The notes beneath the pieces were generated by a model, which was not told the DNA's origin, ran no database searches, and saw only the letters and a program-made list of their open reading frames with translations. From positions 2,545,513 through 2,609,512 of the forward strand of contig NZ_CP104311.1 of assembly GCF_036864975.1 (NCBI RefSeq): 64,000 nucleotides of DNA, given 5' to 3'. This document shows positions 2,007 through 58,269 of the stretch, in pieces (position 1 is the first letter of the stretch; the number at the start of each line of letters is the position of its first letter). The translations under genes were made by a program, and so were the position numbers. The DNA comes from Methylococcus capsulatus (GTDB lineage Bacteria; Pseudomonadota; Gammaproteobacteria; Methylococcales; Methylococcaceae).

Positions 2007-2957
2007 TCATGGCACCAACAGGCCGACGGCCCCGGTGATGACGATATTGGCCAGGGTCAGCGGCAGCATCACCTTCCAGCCGAAACTCATGAGCTGATCG
2101 TAGCGCGGCCGGGCCAGCGCCGCACGCAGCAGGATGAAGAAGAGGATGAAGACCAGGGTCTTGAGGATGAACCAGGCCAAAGGCGGCAGGAAGGCCGGTC
2201 CCAGCCAGCCGCCGAAGAACAGTGTCACCAGCATGGCCGAGTTCAGGGTGATCCCCAAGTATTCGCCGACGAAGAACATGCCGAACTTCATGCCGGAATA
2301 TTCGGTGTGGAAGCCACCTGTGATCTCCTGTTCGGCTTCCGGCAGGTCAAAGGGAGCGCGATGGCATTCCGCCACAGCCGCCACCAGGAAGGCGAGAAAG
2401 CCGGCAAACTGCGGCAGTACGTACCAGCCGTCTTTCTGCGCTTCGACGATCTCCCGCAGGTTGAAGCTGCCGGCCAGCATCACCACACCCATGGCGGCCA
2501 GCCCCATGAAGACCTCGTAGCTGATGCTCTGGGCGGCGGCGCGCAGGCTCCCGAGCAGGGAGTATTTGTTGTTCGAGGCGTAGCCCGCGAGCACCTGGCT
2601 GTAGACCGCCAGCGAAGACAGCGCGAAGAAATACAGCAGGCCGAAGTTGAAGTCGATGACGCCCACGCCCGGCGCGAACGGCACCACCACGAAGCCGAGC
2701 AGCATGGTCACCATGACGATGGCCGGCGCGATGACGAACACCGGCTTGTCGGCGAAAGGCGGAATCCAGTCTTCTTTGAAGAAGATCTTGACCATGTCAG
2801 CCACCACCTGTCCCAGCCCGAGCGGGCCGACCCGGTTGGGCCCGAGCCGGTCCTGCCAGATCCCGATCAGGCGGCGCTCCACCCAGATCAGCCAAGCCGC
2901 GACGACCACGACCGAGAGCAGGATGCCGACGACGACATAAGGCGATCCGACGGTCAT
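2007..2957 (-). CDS. nuoH: NADH-quinone oxidoreductase subunit H
   Basis: This complex I membrane subunit forms part of the quinone-binding site at the junction with the peripheral arm. It has 316 residues and about eight membrane helices. Family motifs include [21 protein letters not shown] near residues 25-45 and the acidic loop [16 protein letters not shown] around residues 195-210. The ATG at 2957 overlaps the TGA of nuoG (ATGA), which suggests translational coupling. An open frame continues upstream inside nuoG but has no NuoH similarity. Confidence 0.96.
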
Positions 2958-5842
2958 GACATCTCCTCTCCAGCTTCGTTCGGTTTCCACGGCCGCGAGG
3001 CGGTTGCCAGGAAAGGCAGGTCGGGCAGGCCGGCCGGTACGCCGGCGACGCCGGCCGCGAGGCCGGAGAGGAGCTTCACCGGCAGCCAGACGTCCGGGGC
3101 GAGTTCGACTTCTTCGCCTTCGGCGAGACCGAGCCGGGTCGCGTCTTCGGGAGCGATGGCGAGATAGGGATGCGGCGCCCGTTCTGCCACTGCGGCCGAG
3201 TGCATGCTGGTCTCGTCGCTGCCGAAGATGTGGTGAAGCGGTACCAGCCGCAGCGCGTCCGCAAGGGGCGCCTCGGCTTCCGGCGGCGGGGACCACGGCC
3301 GTTCGGCCCCGTCGCCGCCACCGAGCAGACGGATGCCGGGATCACCGCCGGAGAGATGCCCGCCGGCTTCATCCTGGAATTTGCAGACCGCCTGGTTCGA
3401 GTTCCAGCCCGGCGCCCAGACGAAGGGATTCAGGGCAGGCGGATGATCGGTTGCCGCTCCCTCCATGGAGAAGGCCAGGGCCGAATCGGTGTCCTCCGGC
3501 GGTTTCGGTTCGTGGATGCGGACGTCGGCCAGCATTGCGGTGCGTCCGCTGTAGCGGTGCGGCTGGCGCGGGATCTTCTGGCCTGCGATGCGGAAGGCCG
3601 CTCCCGGCGCGCAAGCGGTGATTTGCTGGAACACCGGTAGCGAGCCGGCCAGCGCTCGGGTCAGATCGTCGAGGTGGGGCCACGGCCCGAGCCAGCGCCA
3701 GCCATCCCGGCTGTCGCCGGCCGGCTGCATCGCTGCGAAGAAGCGCTGGGCGCGCCCTTCGCTGCTGATCAACGTCCCTTCGGTTTCGGCGAAGCTGGCG
3801 GCCGGCAGGACGAGGTGCGCGCGCTCCGCTGTGGCGTGCAGGGTATGGTCGATCACGATCACCTGTCTCGCACGCGTCAGTAGCGCATCGATCGCGGTCC
3901 GGTCCGCCCGCCGGTAGAGATCGTTCTCCAGGATCAGGAGCGTGTCGGCCCTTCCGGCCTCGATGGTCTGGAAGGCGTGGGCAAGAGGCTGCGCCTCCAT
4001 CATCGCCAGCCCCAGGCTGTTGCATTCCGGTACGGCGAAATGCACCGCCGTGGCCTGACCCCCCCGTGTCGCCGCCAGTGCGGCGGCGATCTGGCCCACC
4101 GCCCGCAGCGCGTCTTCGCTCAGGCAGCCAGTGCCGGACACGATCAGGGGCCGTTCGGCCGAGGTCAGCGCCTGGGTGATTTCCGCAGCCAGGGCTTCGT
4201 GTTCGGGGGGCAGATTTGAGACGGCCGGCGCTTCGGGGCAGATCCCGTGCGCGACGGCGAAGCCCAGCCGGGCGATGGTCTGAGGGGATGCGCGGCAGAT
4301 TCGCACGGCGATGTCGTCCAGCCGGGTCGGCGCCGGACTGGCGATGAACAGCGGGCTCTTCTCGGCCTGGGCCGCTTCACGCACGGCGGCATCCTGCCAG
4401 TGCGGGATGCCCAGTTCGTCGGCGATGGCCAGGGCACGGTTGCGCACTGCTTGGCGCAGCGCCAGCGCCAGCCGCGGTGCGGTCTGAGTCGGGTCTTCGC
4501 CCAGGATGAAGACGGCATCCGCCCGTTCGGCCTCCCGCAGCGACACGAGGTGGACGGGGAAGTTCCGGATGAGGTCGAGCAGGGTGCGCAGGCAGCCATG
4601 TTCGGCGCCGCCGATGCCGGCATGGAAACGCTCCGCGCCGACCCGTTCCCGCAAGGCGAAATTGGCCTCGAGGCTGGCGCGGGGCGATCCGATGCCGATG
4701 ATTCCCTTGGCATCCTCGAGCATGGCGCGCAAGCGGTTTTCGGCGGCGTGCACGTCCAGCGGAGCGGTTTCGGCGGAGCGGGCCTGATGCAGGCGAGCCG
4801 GGCCGTTGACGAAGCCGTAGCCGAATCGCCCCCGGTCGCAGAGGAAATAGCCGTTGATCTCGCCGTGGTAGCGGTTGACGATCCGCCGCAGACTGCCATA
4901 ACGCTCACCGGGGCTGGTGTTGCAGCCAATGCCGCAGTGGACGCAGACCGAGGGCGCGGTCTGCAGGTCCCATTTGCGGCTGTAATGACGGCTGAAGGTC
5001 TTGTCGGTGAACACCCCGGTGGGGCAGACCTCAACGAGGTTGCCACTGAATTCGTTCTCCAGCGTCCCGTCCTCGTGGCGGCCGAAATAGACGTGGTTGT
5101 GCGAGGCGAATACTTGCAGATCCTCGCCGCCGCAATAGTCCTGGTAATAGCGGACGCAGCGGTAGCAGGCGATGCAGCGGTTCATCTCGTGGTTGATGAA
5201 GGGTCCCAAGTCCTGGTTGCGGTGGGTGCGCTTGAGGCCGCGGTATTGGCGGAAGGTATGGCCGGTCATCACAGTCATGTCCTGCAGATGGCATTCGCCG
5301 CCTTCCTCGCACACGGGGCAGTCGTGCGGATGGTTGGTCATCAGCAGTTCCAGGATGCCGGCGCGGAAGGCTTTGGCGTCAGGGCCCTGCAGAGAAATCC
5401 GCATACCCTCCGCAACCGGTGTCATGCAGGCCATCACCACCCGGCCTTGGGTGTCGTCTGCATCTTTGAACTGGATCACGCCGCACTGGCGGCAGGCGCC
5501 GACCGAACCCATGGCCGGGTGCCAGCAGAAATAAGGCAGGTCCAGGCCCAGCGAGAGTATCGCCTGCAGCAGGTTTTCCCCTGCCTTGACCGGATAGCTC
5601 TTGCCGTCGATTTCGATGTGCGGACTCCCTCCCTGGAGTCCGTCCTGGGGACCGGCCTTCGGCCGTTCAAAATCGTTCCTTACGATTTTGTGCGGACTCC
5701 CTCCCTGGAGTCCGTCCTGGGGACCGGCCTTCGGCCGTTCAAAATCGTTCCTTACGATTTTGTGCGGACTCCCTCCCTGGAGTCCGTCCTGGGGACCGGC
5801 CTTCGGCCGTCCAAAATCGTTCCTTACGATTTTGTCAGGCAT
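2954..5842 (-). CDS. nuoG: NADH-quinone oxidoreductase subunit G with a repeat insertion at the N-terminus
   Basis: This is the large iron-sulfur subunit of complex I, 962 residues long. After MPD, residues 4-75 are three copies of a 24-residue unit ([20 protein letters not shown]...) encoded by a 72-bp DNA repeat. The normal NuoG start, [20 protein letters not shown], follows at about residue 75. Next come the [2Fe-2S] cysteines ([16 protein letters not shown]), the His/Cys cluster ([16 protein letters not shown]), a [4Fe-4S] motif ([15 protein letters not shown]), a further CVHCGIGCN cluster and a molybdopterin-oxidoreductase-like domain. The ATG at 5842 overlaps the nuoF stop by 8 bases, which argues that this is the original start and that the repeats were inserted just after it. 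Without the repeats the length is about 890 residues. Whether the repeat peptide stays in the mature protein is unknown. Confidence 0.95.
5619..5835. repeat. Three tandem 72-bp hairpin-rich repeat units within nuoG
   Basis: Units begin at 5621, 5693 and 5765, with period 72. They are nearly identical: one T-to-C change in the third unit (GTCC for GTTC before AAAATCG) turns Glu into Gly. Each unit holds three perfect inverted repeats: GGACTCC-N6-GGAGTCC, CGGCC-N3-GGCCG and CAAAATCGT-N5-ACGATTTTG. The period is divisible by three and no stop arises in the nuoG frame, so the array is translated as 3 x 24 residues. The structure resembles REP/BIME-type intergenic elements or the Rickettsia RPE elements found inside proteins. 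No second locus was seen in this window. Confidence 0.95.
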
Positions 5843-7118
5843 GGGCGCCTCCGTTGATGTTTTGCGGCTGGAGATAGCGCTCGAAATCGGCGCGGAAATA
5901 TTTGAGGGCGCTCTGCAGCGGCTCCATCGCGCCGGGGGCGAGGGCGCAGAAGGTATTGCCGGGGCCGAGCAGGCCGCACAAGCGCGCCAAAGTCTCGAGG
6001 TCCTCAGGCCGGCCGCGCCCTGCTATCAGGTCTTCGAGCAGGCTGACGGTCCAGGGCAGGCCATCCCGGCAGGGGGTGCACCAGCCGCAGGATTCCTGAG
6101 CAAAGAACCGTTCGAGGTTGAGCACCATCTGCACTGGACAGGTCTTATCGTCCAACAGGATCATCGTGCCGGTACCGAGCCTGCTGCCGGCCTTGGCGAT
6201 CGACCCGTAGTCCATGGGGATGTCCAGGTGTTCGGGCAGCAGAAAATCGGTGGACGCCCCCCCGGGCAGGTAGCCTTTCAACCGGTAGCCTTGCCGCATT
6301 CCGCCGGCATGTTCTTCGATGATCTCCCTCGCCGTGGTACCCATGGGCAGCTCCCATGCGCCGGGGCGCTCGACCCGACCGCTGACGCCGTAAATCTTGG
6401 TGCCCGGCTCGCCGCTGCGGCTGAGACTCTGGTACCACTCCACTCCGTTGCGGAGGATGTGCGGCAGATTGCACAGAGTCTCGACGTTGTTGACGATGGT
6501 GGGCTTGCCGAACAGCCCGGAGACTTGCGGAAACGGTGGTTTGGCGCGAGGGGTGGCGCGCTTCCCTTCCAAGGAGTTGAGCAGGGCGGTTTCCTCGCCG
6601 CAGATGTAGCGGCCGGCGCTGGTGTGCAGACGCAGATCCAGGCTGAATCCCGAGCCGAGGATGTTTTCGCCGAGCAGCTTGTGTGCTTCGGCTTCGGCGA
6701 TCGCCCGCCGCAGTCGCGCCGCCGCCAGCCGGTACTCCCCCCGGAGGAAGATATAAGCGACGTTCGCCTGGATGGCGTAAGATGCGATGGCCACGCCTTC
6801 GATCAGTTGGTGCGGATCGCCTTCCAGCAACAGCCGGTCTTTGAACGTGCCGGGCTCCATCTCGTCGCCATTGACCACCAAGTATTTGGTTTTGGGCGCA
6901 TCCTCGCCCATCGGCACGAAGCTCCATTTCAGGCCGGTCGGGAAGCCGGCGCCACCGCGGCCGCGTAGTCCGGAGTCTTTGACCCGCTGCTGCACCTCCA
7001 GAGGGGTGAATTCGGCGAGGGTTTTTTTCAACCCTTCGTAGCCACCGCCGGCGAGATATTCGGCCAGAGTCACGGTCGAGCCGTCGGATTTGATGTTGCG
7101 GGTGAGCGGCGCGTCCAT
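5835..7118 (-). CDS. nuoF: NADH-quinone oxidoreductase subunit F (NADH/FMN-binding)
   Basis: This subunit binds NADH and FMN and carries cluster N3, the electron entry point of complex I. It has 427 residues, the usual length. The glycine-rich FMN/NADH region GLRGRGGAGFPTGLKW lies near residues 51-66, and VVNGDEMEPGTFKDR follows. The [4Fe-4S] ligands are Cys344, Cys347 and Cys350 in CGWCTPCRDG, plus Cys391 (NTFCALA). Its start overlaps the nuoE stop (ATGA) and its stop overlaps the nuoG start. Confidence 0.97.
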   Translation of the reverse strand: MDAPLTRNIKSDGSTVTLAEYLAGGGYEGLKKTLAEFTPLEVQQRVKDSGLRGRGGAGFPTGLKWSFVPMGEDAPKTKYLVVNGDEMEPGTFKDRLLLEGDPHQLIEGVAIASYAIQANVAYIFLRGEYRLAAARLRRAIAEAEAHKLLGENILGSGFSLDLRLHTSAGRYICGEETALLNSLEGKRATPRAKPPFPQVSGLFGKPTIVNNVETLCNLPHILRNGVEWYQSLSRSGEPGTKIYGVSGRVERPGAWELPMGTTAREIIEEHAGGMRQGYRLKGYLPGGASTDFLLPEHLDIPMDYGSIAKAGSRLGTGTMILLDDKTCPVQMVLNLERFFAQESCGWCTPCRDGLPWTVSLLEDLIAGRGRPEDLETLARLCGLLGPGNTFCALAPGAMEPLQSALKYFRADFERYLQPQNINGGAHA

Positions 7119-23737: not shown

Positions 23738-24079
23738 CTATGGGTTGGGCAGATGGGCGAGGAACCATTCCAGCAGCCGGATCATTATCACGCCCACCAC
23801 CGCACCGACGGAACCGACCACCCAGAGGGTCTGGCGATGGATGGCCTGCGTCAGACGCACTTCCACCTCCTTGATCTCTTTCTGGAGCTTCAATTCGACT
23901 TCCTTGATCTCCTTTTGCAGCCGCAATTCGGTCTCGCGCACCTGGCCGGCGGTCGCCACGTCCTTCAACTGGGGATAGCGGTCCTCCAGATGCTCGAAGG
24001 CTTCCGCGATCAGTTTGGCGCGCGTCTTGTCTTCGCCCGCCTCGGTCAGTTGTTCGTACAGTCGTAGCGCTACGCTCAT
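23738..24079 (-). CDS. Coiled-coil protein with one C-terminal membrane anchor
   Basis: This protein has 113 residues. Residues 45-80 form a strongly predicted coiled coil with an 11-residue internal repeat (LQKEIKEVELK then LQKEIKEVEVR). A single membrane segment (LWVVGSVGAVVGVIMIRLLEWFL) ends the protein. The layout resembles the DUF1640/CCDC90-type family, but I cannot confirm this. The N-terminal region (ALRLYEQLTEAGEDKTRAKLIAEAFEHLE) is helical. No function is assigned. Confidence 0.75.
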   Translation of the reverse strand: MSVALRLYEQLTEAGEDKTRAKLIAEAFEHLEDRYPQLKDVATAGQVRETELRLQKEIKEVELKLQKEIKEVEVRLTQAIHRQTLWVVGSVGAVVGVIMIRLLEWFLAHLPNP

Positions 24080-58065: not shown

Positions 58066-58139
58066 TGGAGGCTGAGGTCGGAATCGAACCGGCATAGACG
58101 GATTTGCAATCCGCAGCATAACCACTCTGCCACTCAGCC
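58066..58139 (-). tRNA. tRNA-Cys (anticodon GCA)
   Basis: A 74-base tRNA with acceptor stem GGCTGAG/CTCAGCC, the anticodon loop TTGCAAA giving GCA (cysteine), a GTTCGATTC T-loop and an encoded CCA end. It follows tRNA-Gly on the same strand, with a hairpin between. Confidence 0.96.
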
Positions 58140-58153
58140 TCTGAAGCCAAAGC

Positions 58154-58183
58154 AAAAAGCCGCGATCACAAACGCGGCTTTTT
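58154..58183. terminator. Hairpin with T-runs between the two tRNA genes
   Basis: The stem AAGCCGCG/CGCGGCTT with an 8-base loop has A- and T-runs on the two sides, so it could be a bidirectional terminator. It lies in the spacer of the tRNA pair, so some transcripts may stop before tRNA-Cys. Confidence 0.65.
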
Positions 58184-58193
58184 CCGAAAGCGA

Positions 58194-58269
<76 letters not shown>

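Follow-up and report, generated by a model that had tools for sequence, protein, structure and literature searches.

A tandemly repeated palindromic element, probably mobile, is carried in frame at the start of nuoG in Methylococcus

The window analysed here is a 64,000-nt stretch of Methylococcus capsulatus DNA, from a source genome assembled as one contig of 3.43 Mb. It carries nuoF and nuoG on the minus strand, and a tandem array lies just after the first three codons of nuoG. The features at this locus are as follows.

2954-5842, minus strand: nuoG open reading frame, 962 aa, including 72 array-encoded residues after codon 3
5835-7118, minus strand: nuoF, overlapping the nuoG start by 8 nt
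5848-5852, minus strand: GGAGG, Shine-Dalgarno-like, 5 nt before the nuoG ATG (read by eye)
5620-5835, plus strand (oriented as the element consensus; translation is from the minus strand): whole tandem array, a net insertion of 216 nt by comparison with relatives
5620-5691, plus strand: array unit closest to the NuoG core, third to be translated (TRF, copy alignment, covariance model)
5692-5763, plus strand: middle array unit (TRF, copy alignment)
5764-5835, plus strand: array unit closest to the start codon, first to be translated (TRF, copy alignment, covariance model)
5621-5642, plus strand: hairpin 1 of one unit, 8-bp stem, TCC in the loop
5643-5651, plus strand: hairpin 2 of one unit, short stem (3/4 bp)
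5653-5665, plus strand: hairpin 3 of one unit, 5-bp stem
5668-5690, plus strand: hairpin 4 of one unit, 9-bp stem, loop TCCTT

At 5617-5835, TRF reported a 72-nt unit in 3.0 copies with 99% matches, and the three copies are 100, 100 and 99% identical, confirming the three near-identical 72-bp units that an earlier note on this DNA had placed at the nuoG start. The N-terminus of NuoG in the source genome reads MPD-(24 residues x3)-IEIDG, so the addition of 72 residues after codon 3 also holds, and the 8-nt overlap with nuoF at the upstream ATG agrees with the proposal that the insertion followed the original start codon. NuoG matches the Pfam domains Fer2_4, NADH-G_4Fe-4S_3, Fer4_Nqo3 and Molybdopterin among others, the first of which begins at residue 75. 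Elsewhere in the window, TRF found a degenerate 33-nt tandem repeat (23852-23930, 2.4 copies, 73% matches).

The array occupies the same nuoG site, always in frame, in all six Methylococcus genomes examined, with lengths of 216 (source genome), 117, 144, 72, 405 and 144 nt. Two of the species carry 45-nt partial units that are also in frame, supporting the idea that the units are open and the frame is retained. An assembly artefact, against which the earlier note had recommended long reads, was rejected because six separate assemblies carry the array with differing copy number. GGAGG precedes the nuoG ATG in the other five genomes as well (by eye). Among 78 NuoG loci from other genera, for some of which the upstream walk was uninformative, those with a readable start begin M-x-x-I(E/Y)(I/V)D or similar and are free of the array, which is thus genus-wide in Methylococcus and missing elsewhere wherever the start can be read. 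Judged from these N-termini, the ancestral NuoG start was likely MPDIEIDG; we infer the empty nuoG site, every Methylococcus genome examined carrying the array.

Is the array translated? Between codon 2 and the M of the [2Fe-2S] motif PYFCWHPAM, the seven sequences from the six genomes contain no in-frame ATG, GTG or TTG (there are CTG codons only), so that initiation at the upstream nuoG ATG is by far the simplest reading, and the array is very likely translated from it. The same result bears on the possibility that translation begins after the array, which would then be 5' untranslated DNA, as argued for many repeats near predicted N-termini in Di Nocera et al. 2013 (PMC3733652). The earlier note had allowed for such an internal start, and the sequence does not support it; moreover, GGAGG and the nuoF overlap are retained at the upstream ATG, and we regard a later start as very improbable. 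An AlphaFold2 model of NuoG, built on a 28-sequence alignment, gave residues 1-71 a pLDDT below 50, in keeping with the added N-terminal tail proposed before; since much of the core scores low too (mean pLDDT 64.5 overall, 359 residues below 50), the model tells us only that the tail has no predicted fold. The strong hairpins immediately after the start codon could also be taken to mean that the array is not translated at all, ribosomes hopping across it or the RNA being removed. Ribosomes do hop over the byp elements of some yeast mitochondria. However, bypass requires neither a multiple of three nor a stop-free sequence, yet every one of the six arrays, even where units are partial, is open and in frame, and the copies in the ATPase and amidohydrolase genes described below are still open in species with eroded palindromes, which argues against bypass or removal and leaves it extremely unlikely.

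The units had been described as holding three inverted repeats each, which we correct to four hairpins, with stems of 8, 3/4, 5 and 9 bp. Folded as DNA, a single unit shows three of them (the one with the 3/4-bp stem does not appear) and is more stable than expected by chance (z -6.1), and the RNA fold of the array region reaches -120 kcal/mol against a shuffle mean of -84.8 (z -7.0). At the Rfam gathering score, the whole window yields two tRNA genes only (58069-58269, minus strand), and a known RNA family was rejected as an account of the array; the best match within 5500-6000 is RsmY, with E 0.089 and 16.5 bits against a gathering score of 57.

The earlier note had proposed a search of the genome and its relatives for the unit. 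With a covariance model built from 21 copies, whose E-values are rough, we found a dispersed family: the six Methylococcus genomes hold 27, 12, 10, 37, 59 and 4 matches, 149 in total with the nuoG units included (E<=0.001). In the window itself, the model recovered two of the three overlapping array units and one weak match elsewhere (E 0.6). Matches at E<=1e-6 are present in 135 of the 369 genomes sampled across the class Gammaproteobacteria; a phylum-wide search at E<=1e-9 gave 22 of 299 genomes, 16 in the class (the source genome included) and 6 in other classes. Inspection by eye of 27 of the 35 matches from other genera showed the same four-hairpin layout. Some copies from these genera lie in recognisable genes: one encodes a Mutator-family transposase, one a 4'-phosphopantetheinyl transferase that holds two copies, and one a PmbA/TldD-domain protein, where two copies in tandem adjoin the likely ATG. 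Coding copies occur in both orientations. We also observed three 75-nt units in tandem outside Methylococcus (locus L265, G647:C2:184357-184584) and, in another genus, seven matches within about 2 kb near apparent group II intron remnants (locus L204).

Comparison of related genomes revealed sites with and without the element. Over 7,292 shared positions, at 91.5% identity, the source genome and the relative G013 differ by three clean 75-nt insertions present in G013 only, two in pglZ (one of them directly after the ATG) and one in the next gene; conversely, the source genome has 180 nt of element sequence at the pglZ end that is missing in G013. The defence-like island with pglZ and a helicase gene (locus L011, 4966-9213; locus L172) is crowded, with 8 matches in the source genome and 9 in G013, and the element copies at the pglZ end form a tandem set within it. 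A wider search for empty sites gave 18 rows, not all independent (two share a target, two belong to a tandem set and two look like copies of one gene), with net lengths of 75 nt in eight, 72 in five, 73 in two, 70 in two and 62 in one, a truncated copy. One of the 73-nt cases lies in an apparently broken reverse-transcriptase gene. This search excluded the retrieved nuoG loci of G013 and G014, matches of an element to its own locus, alignments under 90 nt, junction gaps above 20 nt, spacings above 45 nt and net values below 50 or above 100; for each element, the best target was kept. The base at the junction of the empty site is T in all 10 gap-free rows, and in 100 sites (repeats merged) the element is followed by C in 72% and by G in 26%. 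From these alignments, the element appears to insert mostly as 63, 72 or 75 nt, usually between the two bases of TC or TG.

Insertion and frame counts used the 110 of the 149 matches that were placed in loci; the 39 omitted were eight nuoG matches and 31 weaker ones (<40 bits). Apart from nuoG and pglZ, several genes carry the element in some species only. In metG it is present in one of six species, where the Pfam match spans residues 7-431 against profile positions 1-390. An amidohydrolase gene (Pfam Amidohydro_3), whose product we take to resemble FhcA of the formaldehyde pathway, carries it in four species; the STC_26 relative, 78% identical, is without it, and G011 has only a 51% identical relative. 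In the source genome, the amidohydrolase frame with the element (locus L244, G000:C1:1706741-1707463) is 407 aa long compared with 577 in three relatives, and the gene may be broken. An ATPase gene, presumably P-type from its DKTGTLT motif, has a 63-nt net insertion in three of the six species. Further ORFs that run through the element have Pfam matches to Cas_Cmr3, SNF2 helicase, DUF1156 and reverse transcriptase. A reverse-transcriptase ORF with an in-frame element (locus L010) appears to be a split gene and was left out as evidence of tolerance. A second GC-rich repeat was also noticed in frame, in the metG of G012 (locus L163) and in the helicase ORF of locus L011, giving peptides like TPGPSPKGRGE or PLPLGEGPGVR; in the G012 metG, the hairpin element is located inside this repeat.

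The lengths and stop content of the copies were then considered for 100 distinct copies, including one added nuoG unit from the source genome. Net length is a multiple of three in 90 of them and 63, 72 or 75 nt in 89, although the copies share ancestry, so that 90 of 100 does not amount to 100 independent events, and the boundaries of the 63- and 72-nt subtypes rest on few empty sites. Counting both strands, stop triplets number 0.82 per copy against 3.28 in structure-preserving shuffles, in which pairs and loop bases were permuted within the fold (the lowest of 200 shuffled means was 2.86). All 23 copies called coding are in frame, a result that is partly circular as the rule demanded an ORF running through. 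The 76 distinct copies not called coding show the same pattern, with 0.83 stops against 3.27 and 66 multiples of three, although the coding rule is crude and this set may include some copies in genes. Frame neutrality thus looks like a property of the family and not just of the copies in genes, which points to an adaptation of the family itself to coding DNA.

Pairing was analysed in matches at E<=1e-9 only (81, of which 75 are distinct). Across the distinct copies, 95% of the cells are paired, two-sided changes occur in 23 of 26 pairs, and the covariation score is 0.521 against 0.148 in shuffles, a value favoured by an alignment that was fitted to the structure. Among 1877 cells, G.T and A.C mismatches are about equally frequent (31 and 26), and since G.U would be expected to prevail in an RNA structure read from a single strand, the hairpin pairing seems to be kept as DNA, through selection or a correcting process. 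Hairpins 1 and 4 each have TCC in the loop in 73 of 75 copies, and the arms vary; constant loops with variable arms would be expected if a protein reads the loops.

The strand symmetry of the family's pairing argues against a general RNA role but not against a local one in nuoG, such as the slowing of NuoG translation by mRNA structure that the earlier note suggested. There the array could have been domesticated as a nucleic-acid regulator, its hairpins near the start codon tuning translation, perhaps as GGA-loop CsrA sites. The TCC of the loops is GGA on the other strand, csrA is present in all six genomes, and RsmY, the weak Rfam match, would fit, although its score is far under the cut-off. 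In a small sample of species pairs that are not independent, the first nuoG unit differs between species by 6.4% (13.7% at its own fourfold sites) against 21.5% at the fourfold sites of the NuoG core; the amidohydrolase and ATPase copies, with approximate element limits, change faster than nearby fourfold sites (10.0% against 5.0% and 25.4% against 15.9%). The peptide is not what is most conserved, with pN/pS of 0.66 in the unit and 0.16 in the core, and a hairpin-3 position in the first unit changes between species on both arms, to R, P or Q on one side and silently on the other, the pair being matched in all six first units. However, 6.4% is ordinary for nuoG, as lower values occur in 12 of 24 core windows of 72 nt, and the second nuoG unit, present in four species, is core-like (9.3%, and 21.1% at fourfold sites). 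The hairpin-3 pair no longer matches in four later units of G013 or in the second unit of G014, coding copies of the family lie in both orientations, and the copy number of the array varies more than fivefold. Evidence is thus mixed: it is possible that the first nuoG unit is kept at the nucleotide level, and a regulatory role for the array is in our judgement unlikely. The reading that we prefer is that of a mobile element of which the nuoG array is an amplified copy.

We asked how the element relates to known systems. The REPs associated with Y1 transposases (RAYT systems) share with our element hairpins with conserved loops and the lack of a long target duplication. Y1 transposases are present in all six Methylococcus genomes (23 matches), but no convincing copy of the element flanks any of the 23 loci, the one match being weak (E 0.076), in contrast to those REPs. 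Mobilisation by a Y1 transposase or RAYT was therefore rejected, and no mobilising gene was found among the Y1 loci of the six genomes. One 78-nt query gave no match in plasmid and phage collections at E 0.001.

Rickettsia is the best-known case of protein-coding palindromic repeats, and weak selection in an obligate intracellular germ has been an easy excuse for it. The Rickettsia palindromic elements (RPEs) were reportedly described by Ogata et al. in 2000 and 2002. Intragenic palindromic repeats are known from Rickettsia (PMC10969869) and, as REPs, from several other bacteria (PMC3733652), and RPEs are small palindromic repeats of about 150 bp, in frame in unrelated genes (PMC10969869). The likeness to RPE and REP elements pointed out in the earlier note is borne out: our element is likewise a small dispersed palindromic repeat found in frame in unrelated genes (nuoG, pglZ, metG, amidohydrolase and ATPase, as against uninterrupted relatives). 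By description, it differs from RPEs in its net length of 63-75 bp, its four hairpins and its occurrence in Gammaproteobacteria. CGTC- and GTAG-tagged REPs, according to Di Nocera et al. 2013 (PMC3733652), are 20-40 bp long with a terminal tag, and no dedicated transposase was found for the CGTC repeats; they share with the element a palindromic nature and a mostly intergenic location, sometimes inside ORFs, including tRNA synthetase genes. In contrast, the element is a four-hairpin block with net lengths mostly in threes, a target at TC or TG, and ends GC...TTTG flanked by T (72- and 75-nt types), not a 20-40 bp repeat ending in GTAG. By description, a CGTC REP has an 8-9 bp stem, a 4-5 nt loop, CGTC at one end and a CCA-like tail; hairpin 4 of the element has a 9-bp stem and 5-nt loop, but the element as a whole is without a terminal CGTC. 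The word Methylococcus is missing from the main text of PMC3733652, palindrom and repetitive do not occur in the accessible part of PMC517821, nor nuo in that of PMC13108547. The titles and abstract starts of the literature searched, a coverage with most subscription papers outside it, contained no description of the element in Methylococcus.

Taken together, the comparisons make it probable that the nuoG array arose by tandem amplification of a small, apparently mobile and frame-neutral palindromic DNA element analogous to the RPEs. A single insertion in the genus ancestor would have changed MPD-IEIDG into MPD-(24 residues)-IEIDG, and copy number would then have been altered via unequal recombination or slippage. 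Translation would begin at the old ATG, and the array would be read as a flexible N-terminal tail, apparently tolerated by complex I. Net lengths that are mostly divisible by three, together with a scarcity of stop triplets on both strands, would let the family persist within genes. The hairpins seem to be maintained as DNA, perhaps because a putative recombinase that recognises hairpins and loops moves the element.

If so, a Rickettsia-like habit exists in a free-living methanotroph, where empty sites and a preferred target can be recognised and where a core respiratory subunit carries an insertion throughout the genus. The spread of the family, its frame neutrality and the variable nuoG array were not found described before. 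More tentatively, and with somewhat less than even confidence, we propose that the Gammaproteobacteria harbour a widespread class of mobile DNA selected to live in genes, made of four-hairpin blocks with lengths mostly in threes, stops avoided on both strands, arms freely replaced while pairing and loop motifs are kept, a putative enzyme that reads DNA hairpins, and a TC or TG target; the nuoG element may be a lasting, length-variable part of complex I. Such insertions account for odd short peptides in annotated proteins, and the nuoG arrays provide a natural series, from 24 to 135 added residues, for gauging the tolerance of complex I for a tail.
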